DNA of 27,449 nt from a virus: the IMG/VR virus record IMGVR_UViG_3300044990_001107, positions 1-27,449 of that record; one strand, 5' to 3'. Below, piece by piece: positions 1 to 14,531 of this stretch. The first letter of the stretch is position 1, and every line of letters starts with the position of its first letter. The position numbers and the translations under genes were made by a program. The notes under the pieces were generated by a model that was not told the DNA's origin, did not search any database, and saw nothing but the letters and a program-made list of their open reading frames with translations.

Positions 1-1631
1 ATTAGTTTTTTAATGAGCTGGCGAGGTTTGTTTTCGTAATACATCGGCATTTCATATCCAGCCGAGACAGGATCATGGTGAGACTCAAAGACTTGAAGCC
101 GTGCAATAAAACCATCCTGGAGATCGGTTGGTGTTATCTGCGCCCATAAATCGTCGGGTGTTGCGCTACCGATCATGGAGACATGTTGCCAGGGATATTT
201 TTTATTATTGGACGCATCTGCATAAGATTTTTCACCGGAAGCTCCAGAATATAATTCAAGAAAAGCAGAGCCTACAGTTTCAGCGGTATTGTTTTTTGCT
301 CGTTCACGCTTCAATATTTTTGCAAATTCATCCAGAAAGAAAATCTTTGAATACTTGTCAGGGATTAGTGATATGGCTGAATAAATGGCTGCGCCTCCGG
401 TGAATTTTGATCCACCCATGAAGTGCATTAAGTCCGGTGTATCGGATAAAATTTGTTTCACGATTGCTGGAGCGCCGTCTTTACCTGAACCAGAATGTCC
501 CAGGAGAAGACAATATAAGTTTGTCCTAATACCTGTTGGCCCACATATTTTATGTCCACCAACAGCGCCAAGTAACGCAAGTGAGCAACCCAGGTTAAAT
601 ATTGGCACTGACACCGGACACATCTTGTCCATGTAATCCAGCGTTTCTTGCAATATACCACCAGGATTTAAAAGGATGGCGGGGATTGGTTTGATAGAAC
701 ATCTATCAAATTTTTCGATAGATGTTGGTGTTATTATAGAGAGTACTGTGTGTTTTAATTCTGTAAACATTTTCAAAACAGCATTATCACCGGATTCATT
801 CGCCAAATCATTAAAATCAGATCCGGATGTTTCAGGCAAAAACACCTTTGCATTGATAGCTTCTCCGGCGATAGTGGCCTTTGTTGCGCCGATGTTATCC
901 TGCTTTTTAATGTCATTATCACCACATATAATAATGGTTGCTTCAAGGTTTTTGGATTTAACAAATTGAGCAACTGCAAGAATGTTTCCTGCTGAAAAAG
1001 CGCAATAAACGGTATGGCCGGTACACCTATGGAGAGTTGCGCCGGTTGCATAGCCTTCACAGATTAAAATGGTTGAACTGCCTTGGATGATGAAAAAGCC
1101 GCCTTTCATTTTACCTTTGGGTAGGTTTTTCTTATCACCTGATGGCCTGATGTATTGCAGGGATTGAATTTGAAAAGATTCTGAGAGAACGGGGATTACG
1201 AGCGAATTACCAGCCTGTTTAACCCCAGGATACGCTACAATGTTTTTCTTAATAAGGTACGCATGTTCAGATGGTGTTTTTGAAGCTGCATAAATTTCTT
1301 TCGCTGATTCGGCAGCTCTCGCATATTCAGCATCCTGTTGATTTTTACGATTTATCTCCGCCTGCGCCATAAATGCAGTGGCCTGCATTTGATCCAGGTA
1401 TCCAAGATTTGAATATTCATCAGATACCCACTTGACGCTTGTTCCCTTCCTCCAATCCCCGAAAAATCCAACTGGTACAGGACCATCTGTGTGAAAACAA
1501 TACCATCCTGACTTGCCATGAACACGGCCAGTGCCGTTTTCAACTGGATACCGGTGGATAACACCATCTGCAATGATGGATTTTGGTGGTGTTTGTCCGG
1601 CCTGTATCATGGCGGATGTAAAGTCTATCAT
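1..1631 (-). CDS. Toprim + DUF3987-type phage primase-helicase (3' end outside window)
   Basis: The frame is open from ATG 1631 to the left edge, about 543 codons, with no stop. Residues about 20-70 carry the HRYPVENG...GKSGWYCFHTDG...GFFGDWRKG block typical of phage/plasmid primase N-termini. A Toprim domain follows, with the acidic motif CEGYATG (about 191-197), then CGDND (236-240) and SDFND (271-275). A P-loop GHSGSGKD (about 378-385) and a Walker B-like IFFLDEF mark a DUF3987-type ATPase/helicase domain. From the family I infer primer synthesis and unwinding at the phage origin. The ATG overlaps the stop of the upstream zinc-ribbon gene as ATGA, so the two are translationally coupled. 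This is the main enzyme of the leftward operon controlled by the promoter at 2480-2509. The C-terminus and any winged-helix domain lie off the window. The family call is firm; the exact enzymatic activity is inferred. Confidence 0.9.
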   Translation of the reverse strand, partial: MIDFTSAMIQAGQTPPKSIIADGVIHRYPVENGTGRVHGKSGWYCFHTDGPVPVGFFGDWRKGTSVKWVSDEYSNLGYLDQMQATAFMAQAEINRKNQQDAEYARAAESAKEIYAASKTPSEHAYLIKKNIVAYPGVKQAGNSLVIPVLSESFQIQSLQYIRPSGDKKNLPKGKMKGGFFIIQGSSTILICEGYATGATLHRCTGHTVYCAFSAGNILAVAQFVKSKNLEATIIICGDNDIKKQDNIGATKATIAGEAINAKVFLPETSGSDFNDLANESGDNAVLKMFTELKHTVLSIITPTSIEKFDRCSIKPIPAILLNPGGILQETLDYMDKMCPVSVPIFNLGCSLALLGAVGGHKICGPTGIRTNLYCLLLGHSGSGKDGAPAIVKQILSDTPDLMHFMGGSKFTGGAAIYSAISLIPDKYSKIFFLDEFAKILKRERAKNNTAETVGSAFLELYSGASGEKSYADASNNKKYPWQHVSMIGSATPDDLWAQITPTDLQDGFIARLQVFESHHDPVSAGYEMPMYYENKPRQLIKKL

Positions 1632-1991: not shown

Positions 1992-2192
1992 TTACGACTG
2001 TGGTGTTAAGTTCTCAGCAGAGTGTGGCAATAACTGTATCAGGTAGGGATGTCTTTCGATCTGTGGACCTGCGAGGTGAATACATGTGCGGATAAATTCT
2101 GACTGAGTGCAGTCGATCGCGATTATGGTTTTGCCGAGATACCTGGCCATTTTCTCATCAATTTTGATATTTACAGCGCAATCGTATTTCAT
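1992..2192 (-). CDS. Small protein, probable ribbon-helix-helix DNA-binding fold
   Basis: The product is 66 residues. The pattern VNIKIDEKMARYLGK (a beta strand leading into a helix) and then SEFIRTCIH (a second helix with the usual F-I-R spacing) resembles Arc/MetJ-type ribbon-helix-helix proteins. A GAGG ribosome binding site lies 7 bases before ATG 2192. It sits second in the leftward operon, 40 bases after the YdaS/Cro-like gene. A regulatory or plasmid-partition-like DNA-binding role is possible but not shown. The similarity is by pattern only, since no residue is diagnostic. Confidence 0.7.
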   Translation of the reverse strand: MKYDCAVNIKIDEKMARYLGKTIIAIDCTQSEFIRTCIHLAGPQIERHPYLIQLLPHSAENLTPQS

Positions 2193-2232: not shown

Positions 2233-2472
2233 TTATTCGGTTAAGTTGTTTGATTTTTGAGTAGTGCTGGTGGCGTACAGTTCGGGATAAAGCATCATAT
2301 CGCGTGTGACTTGTCCACCGGTGGCTTGTTCAATACGGAGAGCGAGGCGGGGCGATGGCTTGGCAAAATACAACAGCCGATCAACATACGGCTTGGTCGT
2401 ACCGATTTTTAAGGCAAATTCAAAACGTGATTTGCCATTTAAATAATCTTTGAGTTTATTATTGATTATCAT
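2233..2472 (-). CDS. YdaS/Cro-like transcriptional regulator
   Basis: The 79-residue product has the YdaS/Cro helix-turn-helix layout: LKDYLNGKSRFEFALKIGTT, then PYVDRLLYFAKPSPRLALRI, then EQATGG and a short MLYPELY tail. YdaS proteins are Cro-type repressors found opposite CI-like genes in prophages. An in-frame ATG exists at 2481, but it lies inside the TAATAT element of the promoter at 2480-2509. The predicted RNA begins near 2474-2472, so ATG 2472 is the only sensible start and the message would be leaderless or nearly so. It is divergent from the repressor at 2536. No YdaT-like partner is seen, so I call it a Cro-type regulator and not an antitoxin. Confidence 0.85.
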   Translation of the reverse strand: MIINNKLKDYLNGKSRFEFALKIGTTKPYVDRLLYFAKPSPRLALRIEQATGGQVTRDMMLYPELYATSTTQKSNNLTE

Positions 2473-2479
2473 GTTTGCC

Positions 2480-2509
2480 ATATTAAACCATGACGGTTTA
2501 AGGTGTCAA
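2480..2509 (-). promoter_or_regulatory. Leftward early promoter
   Basis: On the minus strand there is a perfect TTGACA (2509-2504), an 18-bp spacer and TAATAT (2485-2480). The start of RNA would fall at A2474 or A2472, directly at the ATG of the YdaS/Cro gene. The spacer is occupied by the operator palindrome at 2483-2501. It drives the regulator, RHH, zinc-ribbon and primase-helicase genes. Confidence 0.85.
2483..2501. promoter_or_regulatory. Operator palindrome in the leftward promoter
   Basis: TTAAACC (2483-2489), a 5-base spacer and GGTTTAA (2495-2501) form a perfect 7-bp inverted repeat centred at 2492. It lies between the -35 and -10 and overlaps the -10. The inner core TAAAC-N7-GTTTA recurs with the same placement in the rightward promoter (3182-3198). 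It is the likely site of the repressor and/or the YdaS/Cro protein. Confidence 0.82.
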
Positions 2510-2535
2510 TGATTAAATTGAAAAGGTTTGATGTT

Positions 2536-3006
2536 ATGATAAATGTCAATGAAATCAGACGAAAAAACCTAAAAAGATTAATTAATGAATGCGGAATAGA
2601 AAAAACCGAGTTGGCTCGCAGGATAAAAACAAAGCCGCAGTATATTAATAATCTTTTGAATGAAGAAAAAGGACTTTCGGATAAAGCTGTATTGAAGATA
2701 GCAAATGCTTTGGGTGTTGAAGAAGTTGAATTTTATAAAGGACTGATTGTTGAAGAACGAACAGAATTGCAAGGAAACAAAAAACAAACTGATATTCCAG
2801 ATGAAAGGTCGCTTTTAGGTATAGCGACGTTTGTTATAAAATATGGTACTGGTGCTCAATATGAAAGATTTAGATCATTCGGTGAACTGATACGAAAAGA
2901 AATTGAAGATGTAAAAAAAGACAGATCATTACAATCCATGAGCGTGCCGGATTCTTCCCCAATGGATCGTCCGAATGGTCTAAAGGTCGTAAATGGAGGG
3001 AAATAA
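2536..3006 (+). CDS. HTH (Xre/CI-like) phage repressor
   Basis: The product is about 156 residues. Residues 1-65 form an HTH_3 domain: EIRRKNLKRLINECG, then KTELARRIKTKPQYINNLLN, then LSDKAVLKIANALGV. The C-terminal half is charged and partly helical. I see no S24 peptidase Ser/Lys motif, so it is not a LexA-style self-cleaving repressor. In-frame starts at GTG 2503 and ATG 2509 overlap the -35 of the opposing promoter. ATG 2536 has AAAAGG nine bases upstream and starts right at the HTH, so I prefer it. It lies between the two palindrome-bearing early promoters, so it is probably the immunity repressor. No good consensus promoter for it is visible. A terminator follows at 3051. Confidence 0.87.
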   Translation: MINVNEIRRKNLKRLINECGIEKTELARRIKTKPQYINNLLNEEKGLSDKAVLKIANALGVEEVEFYKGLIVEERTELQGNKKQTDIPDERSLLGIATFVIKYGTGAQYERFRSFGELIRKEIEDVKKDRSLQSMSVPDSSPMDRPNGLKVVNGGK

Positions 3007-3050
3007 CAAGTAACGGACGCAGGTTGTGTTTTAAACTCACCTTATTATAA

Positions 3051-3089
3051 GAGGCTCGTGTGACTTCGGTCATGCGGGTCTTTTTTTTA
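3051..3089 (+). terminator. Rho-independent terminator after the repressor
   Basis: The stem arms 3051-3064 and 3069-3082 pair around a TTCG tetraloop (3065-3068), with several G-U pairs. A run of eight T follows (3081-3088). It insulates the repressor transcript from the rightward early promoter about 85 bases further on. I see no gene in 3090-3172. Confidence 0.85.
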
Positions 3090-3172
3090 TTCAAATTTTT
3101 ATCTCTGCCTTTACCATCCATATCTTAATTTATTCTGTTAAAAAAATAATAAACAAGAGTTGGTTATTGTTG

Positions 3173-3202
3173 TTGACAGTGTAAACATATTTAGTTTAAT
3201 AT
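3173..3202 (+). promoter_or_regulatory. Rightward early promoter
   Basis: TTGACA (3173-3178), an 18-bp spacer and TAATAT (3197-3202) copy the leftward promoter exactly in both boxes and in spacing. RNA would start near 3209-3210. It should drive the whole early operon from 3356 onward. Confidence 0.85.
3182..3198. promoter_or_regulatory. Operator palindrome in the rightward promoter
   Basis: TAAAC (3182-3186), N7 and GTTTA (3194-3198) are centred at 3190, seven bases before the first base of the -10. The geometry is the same as at 2483-2501. It is presumably bound by the same repressor. Confidence 0.8.
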
Positions 3203-3355
3203 AAACCCAACATAACAACACCCCAACACAAATTCTTGAGCACTCTTGATTGAGCGCGCAGACGGAAGCTGTGTTCTCTGAACCAGATCGTGTTTGCACG
3301 TAGGCAGGGGAGAGGATCGGCGGATCGGAAACGCAAAAGAACGATAGGAGGCAGT
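3203..3355 (+). other. Untranslated leader of the rightward operon
   Basis: About 145 bases separate the predicted RNA start from the first well-supported start codon at 3356. An in-frame upstream extension to 3290 exists but lacks a ribosome binding site and is unusually basic. The leader could hold an antitermination site, but I cannot identify a boxA/boxB pair with confidence. Confidence 0.4.
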
Positions 3356-3517
3356 ATGAACGGAAAAGACGATATGGCGATTGCAAAGAAAATGGGAGTC
3401 AGTGTTCTTGATCTGCATGAGATTTTATCCAGGTTTGAGAAGCTGGACGCCAGAGAGCTTAACCTGGTGGCGATGCAATTGATCAATCGGTCGATAATGA
3501 AGCTGGAGAAACCATGA
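3356..3517 (+). CDS. Small early protein, function unknown
   Basis: This 53-residue protein is the first gene of the rightward operon. ATG 3356 is preceded by a strong AGGAGG (3346-3351). The text MAIAKKMGVSVLDLHEILSR looks like a helix-turn-helix-like start followed by an amphipathic helix, but it is too short for a family call. The stop overlaps another ATG at 3514 as ATGA, though that downstream start looks less likely than 3583. First genes of early operons are often host-takeover or regulatory factors. No function can be read here. Confidence 0.72.
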   Translation: MNGKDDMAIAKKMGVSVLDLHEILSRFEKLDARELNLVAMQLINRSIMKLEKP

Positions 3518-3582
3518 ATGGAAGTATTATCTGGTGGACGGGTTGCGGCAGGGATAATCCGGCCAAAAAAAAGGAGGTAGTC

Positions 3583-3786
3583 ATGGAGAATACGTGGCCA
3601 GGGGGAATAAGGCACGCAATGGATCAGGATGAACACGAAAGTTGGAATGCGGAACACTATCCTGGCACATTGGAGATTTGTGTAATCTGCGAACAACCGA
3701 CAGGACAATGTGAAGAAGACTCAATTTATTTTGAAGACACAGGTCCACTGTGTGGAGAGTGTAACCTTACACTAGAGACGAGATGA
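3583..3786 (+). CDS. Small CxxC/CxxC zinc-binding protein
   Basis: The product is 67 residues, with CVIC near residue 36 and CGEC near residue 58, a two-knuckle zinc-binding pattern. ATG 3583 has a strong AAGGAGG (3571-3577) with 5-base spacing. A longer form from ATG 3514 would add 23 residues and overlap the previous stop. I prefer 3583 because of the ribosome binding site. The stop overlaps the next start as ATGA, so the two small zinc proteins are coupled. Function unknown. Confidence 0.75.
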   Translation: MENTWPGGIRHAMDQDEHESWNAEHYPGTLEICVICEQPTGQCEEDSIYFEDTGPLCGECNLTLETR

Positions 3787-4013
3787 AATTCCATAAATTA
3801 AAACCATCATCGGCCTACCACCGGCCAGCAACCGCGCCAATAGCTGACACAGGCATCTGCTTAATATGCAACATCCGGCCAATTGCCGGGTATGTCCTGG
3901 GCAGCGGGCAGTATCTTTCAAGGACATGCCTTAGATGCTACCGGAGTGCGGGCATTGATTCGCATGAGCGTATGTCAAGAGCGCACGGAGCACACAAACA
4001 ATCACGCAGTTAA
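3783..4013 (+). CDS. Small CxxC/CxxC zinc-binding protein
   Basis: This 76-residue protein has CLIC (about 26-29) and CLRC (about 49-52) and a basic, Ser/His-rich C-terminus. It starts in an ATGA overlap with the gene before it, with GAGACGAG-like purines upstream. The spacing between knuckles is like that of its neighbour, so the two may be distant duplicates, although the rest of the sequence is not clearly alike. Function unknown. A GC-rich stretch of about 150 bases without a convincing gene follows. Confidence 0.7.
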   Translation: MKFHKLKPSSAYHRPATAPIADTGICLICNIRPIAGYVLGSGQYLSRTCLRCYRSAGIDSHERMSRAHGAHKQSRS

Positions 4014-4162
4014 TCCACAGCCCGGATCTCCAGGCGCGTCCCGATCGCGCGTTGCATACAAAGTCAGCTCGTTCGCCGGGCGGCAGTTATCTGTCATTGG
4101 TTAGAAAGCTGGTCAGATCGATTTTTTTTCAACCATGAATAAACATAACAGGAGAGCTAAAA

Positions 4163-4417
4163 ATGATACGAACAACAGCGAATATAGTCGCTAATATCTA
4201 CGAGGGTCGCTTTCAAGTCGATTTTGATTGCGTGGGGGAGTTAGCGTGTAGATTCGCGCTTTGCCATACGATGCCTCCTGATGGCAACGATGAATGTACA
4301 TACCGCGAATATAGCTCATGTTTATGTCAAACTGCAAAAATATCTACTTTGGAGTCTCTCAAAAAAAAAATCATGGGAATGATTAAGCAGTTAGAGGAAG
4401 AAGTAAATTCCAACTAA
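4163..4417 (+). CDS. Cysteine-containing early protein, function unknown
   Basis: The 84-residue product has several cysteines (CVGELACRFALC, then SSCLC) in its middle and a charged C-terminal helix (LESLKKKIMGMIKQLEEEV). AGGAGAG lies before ATG 4163. The start region MIRTT, together with its ribosome binding site context, is nearly repeated at the next gene (4448), suggesting a small local duplication. The cysteines could bind metal, but the spacing fits no family I know. Confidence 0.78.
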   Translation: MIRTTANIVANIYEGRFQVDFDCVGELACRFALCHTMPPDGNDECTYREYSSCLCQTAKISTLESLKKKIMGMIKQLEEEVNSN

Positions 4418-4447
4418 TATTCAACTAATTAAAATAGGAGAATCAAA

Positions 4448-4624
4448 ATGATACGAACCACAGGAAAGTTTTTATGGCTTTGGAGCAAGTATGAGGACTT
4501 TCAGAGCCGCTGGATTCTATTCACCGAATGGCTCACAGTTACAGAGCTTATTGATGAGAGATTCGATCTTGAAAGCCGGATCGAGTTAGGAGGGCCAGAT
4601 GGAGCAGCCTTACGGACATGTTGA
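4448..4624 (+). CDS. Short early protein (58 aa), function unknown
   Basis: This ORF starts MIRTTGKFLWLW and ends ALRTC, with ATAGGAGAATC just upstream as a ribosome binding site. It is tryptophan-rich with acidic stretches and has no recognisable domain. It overlaps the next gene by 26 bases in another frame, as expected for tightly packed phage genes. Its first five codons nearly match those of the gene at 4163. Evidence for reality is the ribosome binding site, the spacing and the absence of any alternative gene here. Confidence 0.65.
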   Translation: MIRTTGKFLWLWSKYEDFQSRWILFTEWLTVTELIDERFDLESRIELGGPDGAALRTC

Positions 4625-4928
4625 GATGAAAGATAAAATACTTGAATGGCTCATACATGGAGAACGCGGAGTCAGCTCTGAGTCAATGGCGTGCGCAGTA
4701 TTAGGGATGAAACCAAAATTTATGTGTCATCCGATCGACCATGCCGACTTTATGAGATGTGTGAAGTTTCTGGATGCCGTGCCAGAGGCAAGAAACCATC
4801 TTAAAGAGGTCGCTAAATTGAGTGCTACATGGGCGATTTTGGTAGAAAATTGGGATGAACTTGAAACGCTGTATCGTTCAGGTGATTCATCAAAATTATA
4901 TTCACAAATGAAGCGGCTTGGATGTTAG
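4599..4928 (+). CDS. Conserved phage protein of unknown function
   Basis: The 109-residue protein starts MEQPYGHVEM after GGAGG (about 4589-4593). The text GERGVSSESMACAVLG, HPIDHADFMRCVKFL, VPEARNHLKEVAKLS and WAILVENWDELETLY follows a pattern I know from hypothetical proteins in many proteobacterial phages near recombination genes. That family has no known activity. It is largely helical. It lies directly upstream of the Csx3-like gene, 16 bases away. Confidence 0.83.
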   Translation: MEQPYGHVEMKDKILEWLIHGERGVSSESMACAVLGMKPKFMCHPIDHADFMRCVKFLDAVPEARNHLKEVAKLSATWAILVENWDELETLYRSGDSSKLYSQMKRLGC

Positions 4929-4944
4929 GTCGCAAGGAGTAACA

Positions 4945-5253
4945 ATGATAATCGACTTGAGTTTGACAAACAACGATTTGTACGCAGGCTGTGAGGTTGA
5001 GTTGGTAGCAGGCAGGTTTAACTTAACGACACCTGTGTCCCAGGCGATTGAAATCGTTGGAACCAATATCGGCAATATGATTGCAACGATCCCGCAGGCG
5101 GATCGGAATTCAGTAACCCTTACCGGGCCTATGGCCGTGTGGTCGTATCTGGTTGTTTTCCATGCCATCGTTCACGCTTTTTCAGAGGTGAAATACAACG
5201 ATGGACGCAGTGATGATGTTGTAATAGCGCGGCACGGAGCCGCACAGGTTTAG
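4945..5253 (+). CDS. Csx3/Crn3-like protein, possible cyclic-oligoadenylate ring nuclease
   Basis: The product is 102 residues from ATG 4945, with AAGGAG (4934-4939) upstream. An in-frame ATG at 4918 lacks a site. The C-terminal half reads VTLTGPMAVWSYL (57-69), then H77, D86-G-R88 and VVIARH97. This follows the Csx3 pattern of a hydrophobic strand, a G..PIW helix, H-x8-D-x-R and a VVV..H strand. H77, D86, R88 and H97 match by spacing the His, Asp, Arg and His that I recall for archaeal Csx3. The helix between W66 and H77 is one residue longer than I expect. Csx3/Crn3 degrades the type III CRISPR second messenger cA4. A phage copy would act as an anti-CRISPR, as the unrelated viral ring nuclease AcrIII-1 does. 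The gene is sure; the family call is remote homology by eye, and the role is inference. Confidence 0.6.
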   Translation: MIIDLSLTNNDLYAGCEVELVAGRFNLTTPVSQAIEIVGTNIGNMIATIPQADRNSVTLTGPMAVWSYLVVFHAIVHAFSEVKYNDGRSDDVVIARHGAAQV

Positions 5254-5365
5254 AAAGGGAGGAAGCCGGGAGCAAACAAACAGTAACCAACAATCCGCTC
5301 GTAACAACAGCGAGCAATCCCGAAAACCGAGTCAACAAAATTAAAGGGCTGTAGTATCCATTAAC

Positions 5366-5391
5366 GCCTCCGTATCTTTCCATACGGAGGC
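5366..5391. promoter_or_regulatory. Perfect 10-bp intercistronic hairpin
   Basis: GCCTCCGTAT (5366-5375), a 6-base loop and ATACGGAGGC (5382-5391) pair perfectly. No T-run follows on either strand, so it is not an ordinary terminator. It lies in a 158-base gap without a gene, ending 6 bases before the AAAGGAG of the gene at 5412. It may stabilise the message or slow ribosomes or polymerase. Confidence 0.65.
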
Positions 5392-5411
5392 AACTTCAAA
5401 GGAGAAAACCT

Positions 5412-5633
5412 ATGAATCAATCTGAAGTGGTTTTTGACATGCGTAGAAGCGGCTGGGAACTGGATACCGTACGGGGGGATGGATTTGTTCACCTTTATAA
5501 ACGTGATAGAGAACGAAACTGTATTTACCCAGATTACACTGATGTGACGGTGTTCCCCAACGGAAGGGTAGCAGAAGGCGAATTTAATAAATATCCAAAA
5601 AAAGGGGCAGGCTTATGGGCACCAAGGAGTTAG
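5412..5633 (+). CDS. Early phage protein, function unknown
   Basis: The product is 73 residues, starting after AAAGGAG (5399-5405). It contains SGWELDTVRGDGFVHLYKR and a basic, aromatic middle, with a predicted mainly beta pattern. I know no family for it. It overlaps the following gene by 19 bases. Being first after the long hairpin-containing gap, it may begin a translationally separate block leading into the recombination module. Confidence 0.75.
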   Translation: MNQSEVVFDMRRSGWELDTVRGDGFVHLYKRDRERNCIYPDYTDVTVFPNGRVAEGEFNKYPKKGAGLWAPRS

Positions 5634-6022
5634 TAGTCAGAGGTTCTGAATTGAAATTGCAAATCAACGCAATGACAGAAGAATTACGCGGTATCAATCT
5701 TGAACTGTCGAGAACTGCGGAATATCGCAACGGAAGTAAAACCGGCCATCTGATGGAAGCCGGGATTAAAGTCACCGTGCAGTTGAAGGAAAATTGTAAA
5801 TGGTATCAGGACAGATTGGCACAGGTGAAAACCCTGCTTCCTGATGTGTTTAACGACACTTTCGTCTATGAGTTTAAACCGGCATCTTCTAAGACACTCG
5901 AATCAGCTATGCAGGATAACGCTGAATTTGCAAAGGCCATCGCCTGGAGCAGGGAGATTAAACCGGGGGCACCGCAGGTGGTGTTCGAGAAGCTTGAGGA
6001 TGAGTGCGAAATCCCGTTTTGA
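5615..6022 (+). CDS. Recombination-module protein with SSB-like C-terminal tail
   Basis: The 135-residue product has a coiled-coil N-terminal part (residues about 5-70) and a compact C-terminal part ending LEDECEIPF. The acidic stretch followed by I-P-F at the very end copies the SSB C-terminal tip (DDDIPF), through which bacterial SSB recruits PriA, RecO, RecQ, exonuclease I and others. It sits 24 bases before the Sak4-like ATPase. AAGGAG precedes its start at 5615. I infer a DNA-metabolism adaptor that either draws in host SSB partners or competes with SSB. The helicase at 7270 ends in a similar tail. The family is otherwise unknown to me. Confidence 0.8.
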   Translation: MGTKELVVRGSELKLQINAMTEELRGINLELSRTAEYRNGSKTGHLMEAGIKVTVQLKENCKWYQDRLAQVKTLLPDVFNDTFVYEFKPASSKTLESAMQDNAEFAKAIAWSREIKPGAPQVVFEKLEDECEIPF

Positions 6023-6046
6023 AACAATAAACAAGGAGATCAACCA

Positions 6047-6745
6047 ATGCTTAAACCAATAACCAGAGAGACAGCCAATAGATTGAATTGTTTGATAATT
6101 GGGGGAGCAGGAATTGGAAAAACCAGTTTACTCAGAACGATACCAGAAAATGAAAAAACACTGGTGTTGAGTTGTGAAGGAGGGTTGTTGGCTGTGCGTG
6201 ATTTGATTGAAGCCAGGCTGATCGAAGGATTTGAAGTTGGTTCTTTTGCAGACCTAAAAGAAGCATATCAATTACTTCTTTCACCAGATTTTAAAACTCG
6301 TTATCAGTATGTGTTCATTGACTCGCTTACCGAGATTAGCGGTAGATGCCTTGAAAGCGTAAAGGCAAAATATCCATCTAAAACAGACTCATTTAATTTA
6401 TGGGGAGAATTCTCAGATAATTTGACTCATATTATCAAGGCATTTCGCGATCTTACCGCATACTCTGTTGTCATGACATGCCTACCTGCTACGCAACTTG
6501 ACGATTTAAACCGTCGATATGTCGGGTGTGCTGTGTCTGGGAAACAACTCCAAGAAAGATTGCCAAGTTATTTTGACTTGGTTCTTTATATGATTAACAA
6601 AGAGGACGAAGATGGTACTGGACATCGTGTCTTTATCACTTCTCCAAGTGACAGATATCCGGGTAAGGATCGCAGTGGTCGTCTATCACAGATCGAAAAA
6701 CCTGATTTAGGTTATTTACGAAACAAAATTTTAGGAGGAATTTAA
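6047..6745 (+). CDS. AAA_24 / Sak4-like RecA-fold ATPase
   Basis: The 232-residue protein has Walker A GGAGIGKTS (19-27) and Walker B YVFIDS (88-93), and the layout of the AAA_24 family, which includes the phage single-strand annealing/recombination protein Sak4. Sak4-type proteins work with an ssDNA-binding partner, usually encoded nearby. Here the DUF669 protein starts two bases after this stop. The usual length of the family is 220-260. AAGGAG lies before ATG 6047. It should act in the cytoplasm in recombination-dependent replication and repair. The family is sure; annealing activity is inferred from relatives. Confidence 0.9.
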   Translation: MLKPITRETANRLNCLIIGGAGIGKTSLLRTIPENEKTLVLSCEGGLLAVRDLIEARLIEGFEVGSFADLKEAYQLLLSPDFKTRYQYVFIDSLTEISGRCLESVKAKYPSKTDSFNLWGEFSDNLTHIIKAFRDLTAYSVVMTCLPATQLDDLNRRYVGCAVSGKQLQERLPSYFDLVLYMINKEDEDGTGHRVFITSPSDRYPGKDRSGRLSQIEKPDLGYLRNKILGGI

Positions 6746-6747
6746 TT

Positions 6748-7221
6748 ATGGCTCAAATTTCAGTAGATCTAACGCAGTACGAAGCACAGGATTCCTTAGA
6801 TCTCCTTCCGCCAGGCTGGTACTCGGCGGAGATCATCAACTCGGAGATCAAGGAAGGGAAGAAAGGCCCGTATATCAACTGGACTTTTCAGATTATCGGG
6901 AAACCGAATCACATCTGGACTATCACCAGTCTCGGTAACAAAATCAGCATGAAGATTTTGAAAACGATGGCGACGTGCTGCGGTCACCGGAATCCGAATT
7001 ATATTGCCGACACCGAAGAACTGCACGGCAAAAAGTGCCAGATCAAAGTTAAAATCAAAACCGATGAGAACGGTGATTACGAGCCGAAAAACGAGATTTC
7101 GGGGTATAAACCACTGGACGGCGCAAAGGTGGCAGTCAATAATATTCCTCCGGCGCACATCGCGGCAGCGGCGATGACTACTGCAATACCGGCAGATATA
7201 AAAATGCCGTGGCAGGTTTAA
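6748..7221 (+). CDS. DUF669 phage ssDNA-binding protein
   Basis: The product is 157 residues. PPGWYSAEIINSEIKEGKKG at 21-40, then INWTFQIIGKPNHIWTITSL, then HGKKCQIKVKIKTDENGDY are typical of DUF669, an OB-fold-like protein that goes with Sak4 recombinases. GGAGGAAT precedes ATG 6748. The C-terminus ends in KMPWQV after an Ala/Pro-rich linker and lacks the acidic tip seen in its neighbours. It should coat ssDNA and stimulate the ATPase encoded just before. Confidence 0.88.
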   Translation: MAQISVDLTQYEAQDSLDLLPPGWYSAEIINSEIKEGKKGPYINWTFQIIGKPNHIWTITSLGNKISMKILKTMATCCGHRNPNYIADTEELHGKKCQIKVKIKTDENGDYEPKNEISGYKPLDGAKVAVNNIPPAHIAAAAMTTAIPADIKMPWQV

Positions 7222-7230
7222 AACATTGAA

Positions 7231-7251
7231 CCCCTGGGGAATACCCAGGGG
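7231..7251. promoter_or_regulatory. Hairpin before the helicase gene
   Basis: CCCCTGGG (7231-7238), GAATA and CCCAGGGG (7244-7251) form a perfect 8-bp stem, without a T-run. Its 3' arm is the G-rich stretch that would be the ribosome binding site of a possible TTG start at 7255. The hairpin may therefore hide that site and leave ATG 7270, with AAGG at 7261, as the working start. Confidence 0.6.
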
Positions 7252-7269
7252 GATTTGAGCAAGGTAAAG

Positions 7270-8979
7270 ATGGATTATACATTACGGCCATACCAAGAGG
7301 ATGTTTTAAAAGTCATTTGGGACGCTATACCGACTGATCAATTTATTCTGATTCAAGCGGCGACAGGTTCTGGAAAAACTATTTGCTTCTCTGAGTTGAT
7401 TAAACGTCTTCTGACACAATGGCCAAACATAAGGATCGGAATACTGGCGCATCGCAGAGAACTTATCACGCAGGCGCAAGACAAACTTCTTAAAGTGTGG
7501 CCGGAAGCGCCTATCGGTATTGCGTGCGCATCTATATCGGGTGATATTGATACAGATAAGCCTGTTGTGATTGGTAGCATACAAACGCTATCCAGACGTA
7601 CAGGGACAACCGTCCCATTTGATTTAGTGATAGTTGATGAAACACATAAAATACCTGCCATGAATATCAAGTCACAGTACAAATCATGGATTGAAACCAT
7701 GATCAAATATAATCCCAAGGTTAGAATAATAGGATTCTCTGCAACATGCTTCAGGCTTTCTCACGGATATATTTATGGGACTGCTTGTAAACCAGGCAAT
7801 ATTAATCTTTTTCCTGATCTACATTATCGAATATCAATCTCTGATCTTCAAAAAGATGGATATCTTTGCGGATACCGAGCTAAAACGATGGCGGATATTT
7901 CAAAAGACTTAGCCGGAGTACGGAAAACCAGAGATTATAATGTGGGTGATTTATCGGCAGTAATGAGCAAACAACAGCACGTAGGGTCTGCGGTGGCTGC
8001 ATTGAATGAACATGCCTCAGATCGAAAACACGTTATTGTTTTCGCTGTTACGATTGCTCACGCTGAAAAACTTCGTGAAGCGTTCGGAGAACAGGCAACC
8101 ATTATTCATTCAGAATTAAATGATGATGCCAGATACCAGGCACTTTCTGATTTTGAATCAGGCAAAATCAGGATAATCGTGAATGTCATGGTGCTTTCCG
8201 AAGGCTTCGATTCACCAGCAGTGGATTGCATTATCATGTGTCGTCCAACCATGTCCCCCGGACTTTTCATCCAAATGGCAGGCCGTGGCCTCCGTCCGCA
8301 TCCGGACAAAAAGGATGTGCTAATTTTGGACTTGGCTGAGAATTGCAAAACACATGGAGATCCGAATAACCCTCGTATAGAGATACCAGGGAGATCGAAA
8401 AAGAAGGAGATTGTGATTGAAGAAAAGAAAATTAAAACCTGTCCCAACTGTAGTGAAATTGTGGAACCACGCGCAACGGAATGTGAAATTTGCGGCTGGA
8501 CGTTTATTCAAGAAAGAAATGATCCAGTAGTGCTAACGGATTATCGGTTTGAAAAGGTGAAGTCAGCTTCGATGATTGGAGAAATCAGCGAAATAGAAAT
8601 GAGTAAGTATGTCAGCCGAGCAGGGGGGTTGATGGTTAAGGCTGTGATAACTGCTTGGGTGCCTGGTAGTATCAACCCCCACTTCATCAATTCGTTTCTA
8701 ATTTTTGGCGACGGGGGACACCCATTTGCCATTTCAAAAAATAAAGCTGTCTGGCGAAAACTGACTGGCTCTGAACCACCTTGTAGCGCACAGGAGGGCA
8801 TTGAGAGACAGGAAGAGTTCAAAACAGCATTAGGGACGCATGGCTGGATAGAAATTGAAGAAAATAATGGCTTCATGGGTGTGAAACGATGGAAAGTTGA
8901 TTCGCCACCGTCTGATTATTTAATACCAGTTCAAGAAGTTACAGAAGCACCATTGGATGAAGACCAAATACCATTCTGA
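7270..8979 (+). CDS. SF2 DEAD/DEAH-family DNA helicase with zinc ribbon
   Basis: This 569-residue protein has Walker A ATGSGKT (31-37), DETH (123-126), SAT (157-159) and motif VI QMAGRGLR (about 335-342), so both RecA-like lobes are intact. A CPNC...CEIC zinc ribbon follows (C391, C394, C405, C408), then a 150-residue C-terminal domain I do not recognise. The last residues are LDEDQIPF, an SSB-like acidic IPF tail. The family resembles phage and UvsW/RadD-type helicases used in branch processing or replication restart. ATG 7270 has AAGG five bases upstream; a TTG at 7255 in frame is less likely. It lies in the recombination block after the DUF669 gene. Confidence 0.92.
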   Translation: MDYTLRPYQEDVLKVIWDAIPTDQFILIQAATGSGKTICFSELIKRLLTQWPNIRIGILAHRRELITQAQDKLLKVWPEAPIGIACASISGDIDTDKPVVIGSIQTLSRRTGTTVPFDLVIVDETHKIPAMNIKSQYKSWIETMIKYNPKVRIIGFSATCFRLSHGYIYGTACKPGNINLFPDLHYRISISDLQKDGYLCGYRAKTMADISKDLAGVRKTRDYNVGDLSAVMSKQQHVGSAVAALNEHASDRKHVIVFAVTIAHAEKLREAFGEQATIIHSELNDDARYQALSDFESGKIRIIVNVMVLSEGFDSPAVDCIIMCRPTMSPGLFIQMAGRGLRPHPDKKDVLILDLAENCKTHGDPNNPRIEIPGRSKKKEIVIEEKKIKTCPNCSEIVEPRATECEICGWTFIQERNDPVVLTDYRFEKVKSASMIGEISEIEMSKYVSRAGGLMVKAVITAWVPGSINPHFINSFLIFGDGGHPFAISKNKAVWRKLTGSEPPCSAQEGIERQEEFKTALGTHGWIEIEENNGFMGVKRWKVDSPPSDYLIPVQEVTEAPLDEDQIPF

Positions 8980-8994
8980 AAAGGAAAAAAACAA

Positions 8995-9840
8995 ATGACA
9001 GAACTTGAACTAGTCGAGACAAAAACACTGAATGCTCTGGTGATTTTCACTGAACCAGACGGCCTGGACGCGATATTAAAAGGTATTGAAAAAAAGGTGT
9101 CGGGCATTGTCCCGGACATCAGCACAGTAAAAGGAAGAAAAGAAATAGCGTCTCTTGCTTACAAGGTAGCTCAGTCTAAGACGCTTCTGGATAAATTGGG
9201 TGCTGAGCTAACGACTGAGTGGAAAGAAAAAGCGAAAAAAGTTGATGTTTCTCGCAAGCATGCAAGAGATTTTCTGGATTCGTTGAAAGATCGGGTGCGC
9301 CAACCTCTCACCGGATGGGAAGAAGCCGAAGCGAAACGCATTGCAGACGAAGAAGCAAAATTGAAATACGCAGCAGAGTATGATGACGCGATTACACTGA
9401 ATTTACTATGGGATCGTGAGAAGGAAATTGCACGAAAGGAAGCTGAGATCGCTCGTATCCAGGCTGAACTGGATGACAAAGAGCGAAAAGAAAGAAACAG
9501 GTTGGAACAGGAAGAGAAGTATAAGTGGGTTGCCGAACGAGACGCAATGAGAGCCACCATTGAAAGAGAGATGAAACTGCAAGCTGCCAAGGATGCCGAC
9601 GAACGCCGGAGGCTTGCGGATATTCAAGCAATTGAAGACCGTATTGAGGCAGATCGTAAAAAAGTTGAAGCTACAGCAGTGCTGGAGGCGGCCAGAGTAG
9701 CGAATCAAGAACACAGATTCAAGATTCTAAATGAAGTATTGAATGATATTTTGGTTTTAGGTGTGGAAGAAACGATAGCGAAAGCCATTATTAAGGCGAT
9801 AGCAGACGGAAGAATTAGCCACGTCAAGGTGATATTTTGA
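8995..9840 (+). CDS. Coiled-coil recombination-module protein (DUF1351-like)
   Basis: The 281-residue protein has a globular N-terminus (residues 1-100, with a GRKEIASLAYKVAQSKTLLD helix) and a long coiled coil of R/K/E/A-rich heptads (about 105-235), ending in a small helical tail. Phage proteins with this arrangement, some annotated DUF1351 or as RecT/nuclease partners, are encoded beside exonucleases. Here the PD-(D/E)XK nuclease begins in a TTGA overlap with this stop. I infer a structural or loading partner of the nuclease. The long opposite-strand ORFs here are composition shadows of the coiled coil. Confidence 0.83.
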   Translation: MTELELVETKTLNALVIFTEPDGLDAILKGIEKKVSGIVPDISTVKGRKEIASLAYKVAQSKTLLDKLGAELTTEWKEKAKKVDVSRKHARDFLDSLKDRVRQPLTGWEEAEAKRIADEEAKLKYAAEYDDAITLNLLWDREKEIARKEAEIARIQAELDDKERKERNRLEQEEKYKWVAERDAMRATIEREMKLQAAKDADERRRLADIQAIEDRIEADRKKVEATAVLEAARVANQEHRFKILNEVLNDILVLGVEETIAKAIIKAIADGRISHVKVIF

Positions 9841-10664
9841 GCAAACTACCAGAATTCGATAAGATCGCAAATGAGATGTATGAAGCCGCCGCCAGAGCCA
9901 ACAGCAGTAAGCCGCGCCGATCGTACTTGGGGATGTCCGCAATTGGAGATCCCTGTACCAGAAAGTTATGGTTGTCATTCCGTGGATACACGCCTCTTCC
10001 ACTTGATGGTAGAGTCTTAATGTTGTTCAGATTTGGCGACCGGGTGGAAGAAGAAATCATTTACCACCTGCGCCTCGCTGGGTACAGTGTGGAAGGACAA
10101 CAAGAATCTTTTTCAGATCATGACAACTGGTTCTCAGGCCATTGTGACGGAATCATTCACGGTGTTACCAGCCACCAACATATTTTAGAGATTAAAAGCT
10201 GTAACGCCAGCAAATTCAAAGCATTTCAGCAGTACGGAGTACAGAAAACATACCAGGTATATTTTGATCAATCACAGTGTTATATGGGTTATGCCGGACT
10301 TGAAAGAGCTTTATTCGTCATTCAGAACAAAAACAATTCTGAAATCTACACTGAGCGGATTTACTTTGATTCAGAAGCGTTTAAGTCACTCAAACAAAAA
10401 GCATACCAGATTATCACGGCAAACGATCCGGCGCCGCAGCCTTTTACAGAAGATTCTCAGACATGCGGTTGGTGCGATCACAGGGTAACGTGCTGGATGC
10501 CATCAGAGGCGATCCAAACGCTGCGGGATTGCATGACGTGTGAGTATTTAAAGTGGACTGGACTTGTGCGAAGCTGTACGCACAGAGATCATCCTTATGA
10601 AATCAAGCAACGAACGAGAGTCTGCGGTGATTTTATTTTAAAAAACCTGGAGGGAGAGCTATGA
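9837..10664 (+). CDS. Cas4/AddB-like PD-(D/E)XK nuclease with four-cysteine (Fe-S type) signature
   Basis: The 275-residue protein carries the PD-(D/E)XK core GHCDG (D104), ILEIKS (E118, K120) and a later QVYFDQSQCYMGY helix as in RecB-family nucleases. C40 in the N-terminal part and a C-x2-C-x5-C group (CGWCDHRVTC) after the core match the Cas4/AddB iron-sulphur arrangement. A further Cys/His-rich tail (CMTC...CTHRDH...C) follows. The TTG start at 9837 overlaps the previous stop and has AAGGTG upstream; no better ATG exists. It should make 3' or 5' single-stranded ends for the Sak4/DUF669 pair. The nuclease call is firm; the Fe-S cluster is inferred from spacing. Confidence 0.87.
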   Translation: MSKLPEFDKIANEMYEAAARANSSKPRRSYLGMSAIGDPCTRKLWLSFRGYTPLPLDGRVLMLFRFGDRVEEEIIYHLRLAGYSVEGQQESFSDHDNWFSGHCDGIIHGVTSHQHILEIKSCNASKFKAFQQYGVQKTYQVYFDQSQCYMGYAGLERALFVIQNKNNSEIYTERIYFDSEAFKSLKQKAYQIITANDPAPQPFTEDSQTCGWCDHRVTCWMPSEAIQTLRDCMTCEYLKWTGLVRSCTHRDHPYEIKQRTRVCGDFILKNLEGEL

Positions 10665-10837
10665 CACGATCAAGAATAACAAGTGCGTTGAATGAGTTAC
10701 AGAAAAAGGTTAAGGCAAAAAAAACGATTAATGAAGCACTTGAAATTTGCCACCAGTGGACTTCTGAATTAATGGAAGTTTGCCGGAAAGAAGAAGCAGA
10801 TGGATACCGATACGGGATTAAAAATACAAGAAAATGA
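10661..10837 (+). CDS. Short helical protein (58 aa)
   Basis: The start overlaps the nuclease stop as ATGA, and GGAGGGAGAG lies directly upstream, one of the best ribosome binding sites in the operon. The product, MTRSRITSALNELQKKVKAK onward, is basic at the N-terminus and helical throughout. No family is recognised. It may be an accessory to the nuclease, judged only by coupling. Confidence 0.68.
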   Translation: MTRSRITSALNELQKKVKAKKTINEALEICHQWTSELMEVCRKEEADGYRYGIKNTRK

Positions 10838-10841
10838 TACT

Positions 10842-11015
10842 ATGAAGGCAATTATAGAGATTGAACTGGAAATGGACGGTCACTATCAAAAATCAGACAA
10901 TCAGGAAATTATTGATCAAATACTAACATCAATGGATAGTGCATGGGTGATTGAGAATAACAGGTTGATAGTGATTGCAGATTCAATAACATGCGAACTA
11001 AAAGGGAAGCCATGA
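10842..11015 (+). CDS. Short early protein (57 aa), function unknown
   Basis: From ATG 10842 the product starts MKAIIEIELEMDGHYQ and has alternating hydrophobic residues typical of small alpha/beta proteins. ATG 10800 in the same frame would add 14 residues and overlap the previous gene; neither start has a strong ribosome binding site. The stop overlaps the DUF1566 gene as ATGA. No family is recognised. Confidence 0.6.
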   Translation: MKAIIEIELEMDGHYQKSDNQEIIDQILTSMDSAWVIENNRLIVIADSITCELKGKP

Positions 11016-11428
11016 TCGACAACGGCAACGGTACTGTAACCGACGAATCCACTGGGCTTATGTGGCAGCAAGAAACGGCAATGTTTATGTCTTGGAAGGA
11101 TGCTTTGTCATATTGCGAAAAACTACAACTCGCAGGCTATACCGACTGGAGACTACCAGTATCGGCTGAATTAAATAGTATCATTGATGATATTGACGAT
11201 GATGATATTGACGATAAACCGGCAATAAACCGACAATATTTTCCAAGAGCGGTTGCGTCATTTTATTGGTCTTCCACTACATCCGCCTCCAATACGAGCT
11301 ATGCGTGGGGTGTGTTTTTTGATACCGGGAATAATTATGAAACGGATAAAAATGGACATTGGTTTGTTCGTGCTGTCCGGAATGTTTATCGGACAGGACA
11401 TAAGAAAGAGCAATTAACCCTGTTTTAA
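11012..11428 (+). CDS. DUF1566 (Lcl C-terminal-like) domain protein
   Basis: The 138-residue protein is a single DUF1566 domain: DNGNGTVTDESTGLMWQQ (3-20), then SWKDALSYCEKL, GYTDWRLPVSAEL, FYWSSTTSAS and NGHWFVRAVR. DUF1566 is a C-type-lectin-like fold, common in surface proteins of Desulfobacterota and used as the variable domain in some diversity-generating retroelements. There is no signal peptide, and it lies in an early operon, which is odd for a binding domain. ATG 11012 overlaps the previous stop, with AGGGA upstream. The role is unknown. No reverse transcriptase or template repeat is seen in the window. Confidence 0.85.
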   Translation: MIDNGNGTVTDESTGLMWQQETAMFMSWKDALSYCEKLQLAGYTDWRLPVSAELNSIIDDIDDDDIDDKPAINRQYFPRAVASFYWSSTTSASNTSYAWGVFFDTGNNYETDKNGHWFVRAVRNVYRTGHKKEQLTLF

Positions 11429-11441
11429 AGGGTAATACCAA

Positions 11442-11774
11442 ATGGCACATCCAAAAATTGAAAAACTCTACAAACAAATCCCGTCTTTCAAGTGCAAGGA
11501 CGGCTGCGCGGACTGCTGCGGGATTGTCCCCTGGGCGCGGAGCGAGTGGGAACCTATTACAGACAAACGAGAGCAAACATCAACAGAATGCCCTTACATC
11601 AGTGAAACAAACACATGCTCAATCTATAATCAACGGCCTTTTCTTTGCCGTATATTCGGTGCCGGCAAAGACCCAATGCTAAAATGTCCGCACGGTTGTG
11701 GACCGGAAAAGCCGCTTTCATGGCAGAAGGCAAAGAAGATGACGGATCGGTATCATGGTCTGATTGATAAATAG
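11442..11774 (+). CDS. YkgJ-family cysteine-cluster protein
   Basis: The 110-residue product has the YkgJ/UPF0153 signature: CKDGCADCC near the N-terminus (18-26), then ECPY, TCSIYNQRPFLCRIFG and CPHGC. The family is thought to bind Zn or an Fe-S cluster through this cysteine set; its reaction is not established. Length and motif order are complete. AAAGGG lies about ten bases before ATG 11442. It is found in bacterial genomes and some phages. Its role in an early operon is unclear. Confidence 0.87.
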   Translation: MAHPKIEKLYKQIPSFKCKDGCADCCGIVPWARSEWEPITDKREQTSTECPYISETNTCSIYNQRPFLCRIFGAGKDPMLKCPHGCGPEKPLSWQKAKKMTDRYHGLIDK

Positions 11775-11799
11775 ATCGAACAGCAGATATGGGTGAATT

Positions 11800-12204
11800 A
11801 TGGCTTTGAGCGAGGAAGAGAGGAAAGAGAAGGACAAGGCGAGACGTAAGGCATACCGTGAAGCCAATCCGGAGAAGGCGAAGGCGCAGAGCAAGGCATG
11901 GCGTGAAGCCAATCCGGAGAAGGTGAAGGCGACACGTAAGGCATGGAGTGAATCCAACTCCGGAAAGTTGAGGTTGGCGAGAAAAGTATGGAATGAAGCC
12001 AATATGGAGAAATTAATCTTATCAAAGTTGAAAGCAAAAGGCATAACAGACCCGCCAGAAGAATTGATAGAGTTGATGGTTGCAAGAAGAGAAGCAAATA
12101 AAACATTGAAGAAAATGAAGAAATGGAGAAAAGAAAATGACCCAACTATCACAGATGTTCAAGGAATCGAACACCAGAATGAAATACCTGATGGACTACC
12201 TTGA
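11800..12204 (+). CDS. Basic repeat protein with KAWREANPEK-type repeats
   Basis: The 134-residue protein has about four copies of a 15-residue unit (K-A-W-R-E-A-N-P-E-K and five variable residues) at residues about 17-75, then a charged helical C-terminal half. Such repeats occur in phage proteins, sometimes N-terminal to HNH domains, and probably form a long basic helix that could bind DNA. There is no nuclease motif here. ATG 11800 is preceded by weak purines only. The 3' end overlaps the next gene by 68 bases, so one of the two starts could be wrong. Confidence 0.75.
   Translation: MALSEEERKEKDKARRKAYREANPEKAKAQSKAWREANPEKVKATRKAWSESNSGKLRLARKVWNEANMEKLILSKLKAKGITDPPEELIELMVARREANKTLKKMKKWRKENDPTITDVQGIEHQNEIPDGLP
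11848..12024 (+). repeat. 45-bp in-frame tandem repeat, about four units
   Basis: The units begin near 11848, 11893, 11938 and 11983. The first two are nearly identical; the last two have diverged. They encode the KAWREANPEK repeats of the host gene. Confidence 0.8.
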
Positions 12205-12550
12205 ATCAGGGAGCCAAAAACCGGATATGGAAGTTATTGCAGCAACTCAGCGTGAGTTTGAAGGACAGACCAAGGCACTGAATGCGTTGGTTGGTATGTA
12301 CGCCATACAATCAAAAAACAAGCGAGCTATCGCCGGAATGGAAAGGATGAACATCATGGATGATACCACGGCGATAGACTTGATGCTTAGTGACCCCAAT
12401 ACCGATAAGGTTAAATGCCCGATGTTCGATGAATTGATAACGAGAGCGGATTGTCTTGATTACTCAGGATCAAATGGTGACGACTGCCGGGGGTGTGTGA
12501 TCGACCGCGCGACAAAGAAAAAGCTGTTGCCAGAAACAGAAGGCCGATAA
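12137..12550 (+). CDS. Cysteine-containing phage protein, function unknown
   Basis: The 137-residue protein has a helical N-terminal half and a C-terminal segment with C-x11-C, then C-x2-C (CPMFDELITRADC and DDCRGC), a plausible zinc site. The start at 12137 overlaps the previous gene by 68 bases; ATG 12179 (MKYLMDYLES) is an alternative with less overlap. No family is recognised. It is part of the run of cysteine-rich genes in the second half of the early operon. Confidence 0.75.
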   Translation: MTQLSQMFKESNTRMKYLMDYLESGSQKPDMEVIAATQREFEGQTKALNALVGMYAIQSKNKRAIAGMERMNIMDDTTAIDLMLSDPNTDKVKCPMFDELITRADCLDYSGSNGDDCRGCVIDRATKKKLLPETEGR

Positions 12551-12552
12551 AC

Positions 12553-12657
12553 ATGCTACGAAAACACCAGAAAATAACAGATGAAGTTTTTCCGGGCAAT
12601 AATCGCCGGGGATGCTACGGATACGATCATCCCGGCACCCTGGCCGTAAGGAATTGA
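12553..12657 (+). CDS. Possible 34-aa peptide
   Basis: ATG 12553 to TGA 12657 fills the gap between two genes, with only a weak AGG-like site upstream. The product MLRKHQKITDEVFPGNNRRG onward shows no motif. The stop is one base before the next ATG, which fits coupling. It could equally be plain spacer. Confidence 0.35.
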   Translation: MLRKHQKITDEVFPGNNRRGCYGYDHPGTLAVRN

Positions 12658-12658
12658 A

Positions 12659-13099
12659 ATGAAGAAATGCCTTTTTTGTGAAAAAGAAATACCGGTAAAG
12701 AGTCGCAGAGAAAAATACTGTTCAGATAGATGTGCCAACACACACAGAAATCACAGGAATAATCCTCTTGCGGTTCATGCAGACAGATCATGTATCCACT
12801 GTGGTAAACAATTCACGCCTACGCACTATTTATCAAAGTTTTGCAATGCTGAAAAATGCCTGAATGATCGTAAACAGAAACAAGATGAAAAATTAGAATC
12901 GTCTCTTCGACTTGGCAAAGTAGCGACTAAGGAAATCAGAAATACGAAATGCCCACGCTGCGAGAAGATATACAAAAAAATATTTATACCAGCATGGATA
13001 GGGAGGGGGATTCCAAGGATGCAGTGTGATGCCTGCAAGGCAACCAGTTATAATATCCAAAGCGCAATCTGGGGTAGCAATGAAGTATATAATATTTAA
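12659..13099 (+). CDS. Multi-zinc-finger protein
   Basis: The 146-residue protein has three Cys clusters: CLFC...CSDRC (4-24), CIHC...FCNAEKC (about 45-66) and CPRC...CDAC (about 98-123). The first resembles the C-x2-C...C-x3-C fingers common in phage and plasmid proteins with FCS-like or DUF2116-like folds. AAGGA precedes ATG 12659. It is very likely a nucleic-acid-binding protein; which target is unknown. Confidence 0.83.
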   Translation: MKKCLFCEKEIPVKSRREKYCSDRCANTHRNHRNNPLAVHADRSCIHCGKQFTPTHYLSKFCNAEKCLNDRKQKQDEKLESSLRLGKVATKEIRNTKCPRCEKIYKKIFIPAWIGRGIPRMQCDACKATSYNIQSAIWGSNEVYNI

Positions 13100-13110
13100 A
13101 GGAGGAACTG

Positions 13111-13566
13111 ATGCGCTCATTGATAACCGTAATATCAAAAATTGCAATAGCTTCTGCTATAGCGGAGAAAGCCATAGAAGCCTCAGTAGATGATGCTGAG
13201 GCAACAGAATTATATGCAAGTATGGACATTGCTGCGATGGCCGCGCTTGCTGCATTCCCTGGGGATTTAAATCAAAAGGAAATTGCTCTTGTCCAGAAAA
13301 AAATAACTCTATTCTGTGATGAAATGGGTTGGGATCATAAAAATCTACACATCCACAACTATCTGATTTTTTCTACCGAACAACTCGAATGTGTAAGAGG
13401 CGAACTTGTGGCGCACAACGCCGATACCCGGAAGATTGAAGCGATAGAGAGATTAATTGCAACAGAAGTTGATATTTATGAACGGTTTTCTGATTTGGGG
13501 GAATATCCTGAGTGCGCTATTGAGGGGCTGAAGGCCGCTGATATATGGAACCAAATCTGGAGTTAA
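13111..13566 (+). CDS. Helical phage protein, function unknown
   Basis: The 151-residue product starts after AAAGGAGG (about 13098-13105), one of the strongest ribosome binding sites here. The N-terminus (ITVISKIAIASAIAEKAIEA) is Ala/Ile-rich and helical, but it carries Lys and Glu residues, so it is not a clear membrane segment. The rest is acidic and helical. No domain is recognised. The stop lies two bases before the next start. Confidence 0.75.
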   Translation: MRSLITVISKIAIASAIAEKAIEASVDDAEATELYASMDIAAMAALAAFPGDLNQKEIALVQKKITLFCDEMGWDHKNLHIHNYLIFSTEQLECVRGELVAHNADTRKIEAIERLIATEVDIYERFSDLGEYPECAIEGLKAADIWNQIWS

Positions 13567-13568
13567 AA

Positions 13569-14240: not shown

Positions 14241-14255
14241 AAGCGAGCTGATATT

Positions 14256-14501
14256 ATGTTGACGAATACTGAACTTGATGCGATAGCGACCCTCTTGGCC
14301 TCCAGAATCAGCGATATATTGTCTGCACAAAAGCCGATTACAAGATGGCTCTCAGTTAAACAAGCCAAAGAATATTCTGGTGTCAAATCAGACAATACGA
14401 TCAGAAAATGGATTACCGAGGGTTATATCCACGCCAACAGAACAACAGGGGAATGGAAGATCGACCGTGAATCAATCGACGATTGGTTCAAACAAGGTTG
14501 A
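14256..14501 (+). CDS. xis: Excisionase / HTH_17 DNA-binding protein
   Basis: The 81-residue product carries a helix-turn-helix of the MerR/excisionase type: WLSVKQAKEYSGV, then NTIRKWITEGYI, then GEWKIDRESIDDWF. HTH_17 proteins beside tyrosine integrases act as recombination directionality factors, bending attP/attR so that excision is favoured. It sits 30 bases before the integrase, as usual. The fold is well supported; the excisionase role follows from context. Confidence 0.85.
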   Translation: MLTNTELDAIATLLASRISDILSAQKPITRWLSVKQAKEYSGVKSDNTIRKWITEGYIHANRTTGEWKIDRESIDDWFKQG

Positions 14502-14531
14502 CAACACCATGTCAATCAGGTATTGCAAAGC

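Follow-up and report, generated by a model that had tools for sequence, protein, structure and literature searches.

Does one operator sequence, placed in two early promoters on either side of a repressor gene, control both early operons of a phage? The question is raised by the IMG/VR virus record IMGVR_UViG_3300044990_001107, whose 27,449 bases are called the window here. An earlier note had described a compact immunity switch at this locus, in which a single repressor shuts a leftward and a rightward promoter by occupying the same built-in palindrome in each. We compared the window with other IMG/VR records and with the genomes L027 and L035. The sequence comparison makes it very probable that the locus is a lambda-like temperate-phage immunity region, closest to that of CP-933P (PaaR2/YdaS), with one operator type for both early operons. 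The central features are:

2480 to 2509, minus strand: P(cro), putative early leftward promoter, analogue of lambda PR, TTGACA-18-TAATAT (exact match)
2484 to 2500, unstranded: main operator (O1) of P(cro), TAAACCATGACGGTTTA, between the -35 and -10 boxes (pattern match; TTCATCTATGTGATTAA instead in L005-L010)
3173 to 3202, plus strand: putative early rightward promoter, analogue of lambda PL, TTGACA-18-TAATAT (exact match; boxes kept in L005)
3182 to 3198, unstranded: main operator (O1) of the rightward promoter, TAAACATATTTAGTTTA (pattern match; TTCATCTTATTGATTAA instead in L005-L008)
2233 to 2472, minus strand: Cro-like regulator of the YdaS/Cro superfamily, 79 amino acids (best PHROG 35, transcriptional repressor, E 3e-11; profile match to CP-933P YdaS)
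2536 to 3006, plus strand: XRE repressor, CI analogue, 156 amino acids (HTH_3, E 4e-9)

The perfect pattern TTGACA-N18-TAATAT occurs exactly twice in the window, at these two promoters. A scan of the whole window for TAAAC-N7-GTTTA also gave exactly two matches, and both coincide with the promoter sites. The number expected in 27,449 bases is 0.04, and none of 100 dinucleotide shuffles reached two. The palindromes are centred at 2492 and 3190 and the -10 boxes begin at 2485 (minus strand) and 3197, so each centre lies seven bases upstream of the -10. Thus, the boxes, the palindromes and their placement are as the earlier note described them. The left site is a perfect 7+5+7 dyad, TTAAACC-N5-GGTTTAA, and the arms of the right site are five bases long. 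The distance between the two main operators is 698 base pairs (bp). As in a lambda-type switch, the repressor and Cro genes diverge around a shared O1, and the second early promoter, with the same operator, lies past the repressor gene. From the position of the operators we infer direct occlusion of RNA polymerase at both promoters.

The two 30-base promoter sequences have 21 bases in common, including similar spacers, as they might if one promoter were merely a duplicate of the other and the palindrome incidental. This is extremely improbable, since the flanks beyond the two 30-mers are unrelated to each other, and since L005 keeps the rightward boxes and their position, yet has a new palindrome that is matched in both promoters. 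In an exact scan of the collection, the combined promoter-operator pattern was found in six IMG/VR records. Both sites in this arrangement were present only in the sister of the window; the other matches lie at unrelated genes. An unrelated phage contig carries two tandem TTGACA-TAAAC-N7-GTTTA promoters (L033:1551 and L033:2556) ahead of small early-type open reading frames (ORFs), and these probably belong to another switch with a similar operator.

For the family comparison, loci were picked as Cro relatives, not for promoter or operator features, and the promoter boxes were found by eye before distances were counted. The distant Cro homologues L036-L040, L065 and L068-L074 were left out of the operator comparison because they have no comparable divergent repressor with the same promoter. 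In seven of the ten lineages, the centre of the best dyad falls 15-18.5 nucleotides (nt) downstream of the first base of the -35 box (binomial probability about 4e-5, a rough value that assumes uniform placement). The relatives L003 and L004 have both operators unchanged, with a repressor 90% and a Cro 95% identical to those of the window. Their rightward region does not differ at all across 75 bases, so this conservation alone says little.

More is learned from L005-L008, in which the layout, the flanking DNA and the TTGACA-18-TAATAT form of the rightward promoter are as in the window. In nearly the same position, these loci carry a new matched 17-bp pair, TTCATC-N5-GATTAA (TTCATCTTATTGATTAA on the right and TTCATCTATGTGATTAA on the left). 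When L005 and L007 were searched whole, the new operator was found in exactly two copies per record, one per promoter. In a blastn comparison of the window with L007, the aligned blocks were 1-1619, 1979-2358, 2809-3106 and 3196-3227. The gap at 2359-2808 holds the N-terminal half of Cro, the P(cro) operator and the helix-turn-helix (HTH) of the repressor, and the gap at 3107-3195 holds the right operators and the rightward -35 box. Between the gaps, the C-terminal half of the repressor and its terminator align at 69%; the -10 box plus leader aligns at 94%. As read from these alignments, both regulators in L005-L008 received new DNA-binding halves together with new operators at two separate positions. 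This joint replacement is what a shared specificity requires, and it supports the claim that a matched operator shuts both operons around one repressor gene.

The data do not favour a single repressor: the DNA-binding half of the Cro-like protein changed with the operators as well as the XRE half, which is to be expected if both proteins bind. In CP-933P, the palindromes at PRM/PR overlap and are bound by PaaR2 as well as by YdaS; each of the two proteins also represses PL, whose -35 and -10 boxes equal those of PR (PMC8630535). Because the two proteins footprint the same region there and both repress a PL-like promoter, one operator type read by both regulators is the most likely reading here.

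We consider it rather unlikely that the XRE repressor alone binds both operators, as the earlier note had it, with the Cro-like protein acting elsewhere or by protein contact. A repressor would suffice to silence both operons, and the N-terminal half of XRE does change with the operators. However, the N-terminal half of Cro changes too, in the same replaced block, and the homologous YdaS binds shared operators in CP-933P (PMC8630535). Furthermore, the operator type tracks the residues of the Cro recognition helix at least as well as those of XRE: the helix reads Y[VI][DN]RL with TAAAC sites (window and L035) and Y[VI]NLL with TTCATC/TTAATC sites (L005, L009 and L027). The XRE helices differ also. 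L035, another lineage, has the window-type operator (one mismatch) in the same place and a similar Cro helix, and its XRE protein is only 17% identical. This would fit binding by the Cro-like protein alone, for autoregulation and early-to-late shut-off, with the XRE sites elsewhere. We judge this very unlikely, since the 63-bp intergenic region shows no other strong palindrome and the HTH of XRE was replaced along with the operators in L005. A choice between XRE and Cro by covariation was dropped, because the independent lineages (window/L003 and L035 versus L005/L009 and L027) are too few.

The joint change of both DNA-binding domains, together with the small number of operators per promoter, would also suit a heteromeric complex of the two proteins on a single operator, as for CI:MOR of TP901-1 (PMC7250872), instead of graded affinities for three sites. 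Candidate second operators exist, however; we regard this complex as distinctly unlikely. A broader proposal is that the specificity of both regulators and up to four operators swap as one set, in two blocks flanking the conserved C-terminal half of the repressor, that the switch works with few operators by joint (possibly heteromeric) binding, and that cro is leaderless in every lineage. Taken as a whole, it is unlikely to hold. Shared reading by both regulators is retained below.

The earlier note gave each promoter one operator. Each does have a strong site, but this count is probably incomplete, since several lineages have additional weaker sites 30-36 bp upstream. The candidates in the window are:

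2514 to 2530, unstranded: candidate weaker second operator of P(cro), TAAATTGAAAAGGTTTG, 30 bp upstream of O1 (local-shuffle P = 0.0033)
3150 to 3166, unstranded: TAAACAAGAGTTGGTTA, second-operator candidate for the rightward promoter, 32 bp upstream of O1 (local-shuffle P 0.0043)

The site at 3150-3166 is the single one-mismatch site in the window, and that at 2514-2530, which overlies the ribosome site and presumed promoter of the repressor gene, is among just 20 two-mismatch sites. When second operators were scored with the half-sites of each lineage itself, 3150-3166 ranked third among all sites of the whole window. The third-best site of L005/L007 is likewise next to the right promoter, at a distance of 36 bp, though the operator type differs and the block is non-homologous. 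At P(cro), L027 has a comparable second site at 35 bp (P 0.004) and L035 has one at 32 bp (P 0.012). Overall, the local-shuffle P was 0.003-0.024 in five of seven tests and 0.16 at P(cro) of L005 and L010; downstream controls scored far lower. These results suggest that each promoter likely has a second, weaker operator.

Three points weigh against the switch as proposed. The individual P values of the second operators are modest, without significance at P(cro) of L005. The promoter of the repressor gene itself is just a weak candidate found by eye, ATGACG-17-TTAAAT at 2490-2518. In addition, L009 and L010 have the left operator of L005 without any such right site; thus, the two-promoter design is not universal. 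These two phage contigs (75 and 48 kb) belong to an otherwise different phage, in which the DNA-binding halves of both regulators are related to those of L005.

A profile of the relatives of the Cro-like protein matched CP-933P YdaS (8co2) with E 8.2e-9 across 57 residues. The score of the protein against Pfam YdaS (PF15943) was 19.4 bits, below the 30-bit gathering cut-off. The predicted structure is a five-helix HTH fold, which matches 8c7k/8co2 among many HTH proteins. The cro ATG at 2472 is conserved, with TTGAC 37 nt ahead of it in the window. All 12 close loci with this arrangement (nine to ten lineages) have a distance of 34-37 nt and no Shine-Dalgarno sequence before the cro ATG. The constant distance places the transcript start at or beside the ATG, and the cro mRNA is probably leaderless. 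The ATG at 2481 was rejected as the cro start; it lies inside the -10 box, and L004, a relative with 90% identity, has ATA there.

In the AlphaFold model of the XRE repressor, helices span residues 4-67, 93-103 and 106-133, giving a predicted HTH at residues 1-70 and two C-terminal helices. No S24/LexA peptidase domain was found in it, and its domain and PHROG matches were to HTH only. Behind its gene lies one further feature:

3049 to 3084, plus strand: intrinsic terminator serving the repressor gene (a stem of 16 pairs with a T run; alignable in L003 and L005)

A short element, AGTAACGG(A/G)CG..GGTTGTG, stands 3' of the repressor gene in the window (3007-3031) and in L027. Its copies in L027 are at 2376-2398 and 2553-2580, and it recurs in L018 at 4960-4990.

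The genes controlled by the two promoters would be the following:

1992 to 2192, minus strand: conserved ORF of 66 amino acids in the cII position (relatives in L005 and L027)
3 to 1631, minus strand: primase-helicase, last product of the leftward operon (PHROG 2249, DNA primase, E 5e-51; Toprim_3)
3207 to 3227, plus strand: CCAACATAACAACACCCCAAC, conserved first part of the untranslated leader (same sequence in the window, L003 and L005; adjoins the non-homologous operator block)
3356 to 15542, plus strand: rightward operon with small ORFs, an AAA_24 ATPase, DUF669, a helicase, a tyrosine integrase and others (family matches)

The leftward order is the cro-like gene, the 66-residue ORF, a 109-residue ORF and the primase-helicase. 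The 66-residue ORF had no Pfam or PHROG match, and no CII or YdaT homologue was found after cro; by eye it looks like a ribbon-helix-helix protein. The rightward genes, which we take to be transcribed as one operon, also include a weak YqaJ-like recombinase match and an HTH_17 excisionase-like protein. The order is that of lambda, with the cro operon leading to replication (primase) and the opposite operon to recombination, xis and int. Thus, the leftward promoter would be the counterpart of lambda PR and the rightward one that of PL. In the untranslated leader at 3203-3355 (about 150 nt), CCAACATAACAACACCCCAAC and the stretch GGCGGATCGG..AACGCAAAGAACGA are conserved in L005. The leader is possibly an antitermination (nut/put-like) site; a search for structured RNA in it gave no Rfam match, and its folding does not exceed that of shuffles (z 0.07).

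The divergent cro/repressor pair is also present in the two genomes L027 (uncultured Desulfobacteraceae bacterium) and L035 (same order), and the host group of the phage is probably Desulfobacterota. Among cultured phages there was no DNA match to the window and no repressor match; Cro matches were only weak, in two Microcystis phages. At 27288-27449, the peptide unit WIDKYSASGG[IV]PIN is repeated in a gene running past the window end, probably for a tape-measure-type protein.

In the proposed switch, the XRE repressor of a lysogen would occupy the operators that lie between the -35 and -10 boxes in both P(cro) and the rightward promoter and keep RNA polymerase off, so that both the cro-replication and the recombination-xis-int operons are silenced. 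The same operators would be recognised by the Cro-like protein, whose mRNA is probably leaderless; in the lytic state this protein would reduce transcription of the repressor gene and, at a later stage, the activity of the two early promoters. The weaker operators, about three helical turns (30-32 bp) upstream, may strengthen repression, and the one at P(cro) may let either protein control the repressor gene. Transcription is predicted to start at about 2472 (leftward) and about 3209 (rightward). Binding, the share of each protein and the lytic or lysogenic outcome are what we infer from the sequence.

The natural exchange of domains and operators lets immunity groups be read: L003 is predicted to be homoimmune with the window, L005-L010 heteroimmune to it, and L009/L010 to overlap with L005 in immunity. 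The approximately ten lineages are a ready data set for the operator specificity of YdaS/Cro proteins, and a switch of the CP-933P/lambda type is now placed in Desulfobacteraceae-linked phages. The finding itself will not surprise a phage biologist.

Among known systems, paaR2/ydaS-ydaT of CP-933P in E. coli O157:H7 (PMC8630535) resembles the locus in a CI analogue that is not similar to lambda CI and diverges from a YdaS-family Cro, homologous by profile (8co2), and in palindromic operators common to PR/PRM and to an identical-box PL across the repressor gene. Its operators, however, are 18-bp GTTTAGTAA repeats, three or four per region, whereas the window has 17-bp TAAAC-N7-GTTTA sites, probably two per region; the window also has no detected YdaT/CII homologue and no toxin-antitoxin pair, and here it is cro, not the repressor, that looks leaderless. 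Lambda (OL/PL - cI - PRM/OR/PR - cro) shares the layout, the gene order of both early operons and 17-bp operators within promoter spacers. The window differs from it in a repressor without a cleavable C-terminal domain, a repressor gene of 157 codons, fewer operators and the short distance between the main ones. The racR/ydaS region of the Rac prophage (PMC5700373), since reinterpreted as CI/Cro (PMC5917428), likewise has a divergent repressor and YdaS with repeated intergenic operators. These are three GCCTAA/TTAGGC repeats in 123 bp, and the text consulted describes no second promoter. The switch of the telomere phage PY54 (PMC4488713) has a leaderless cro mRNA and a Cro that binds one palindromic operator, whereas in the window the main operator sits within the cro promoter spacer. 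The locus is a well-made new example of an already known kind of switch.
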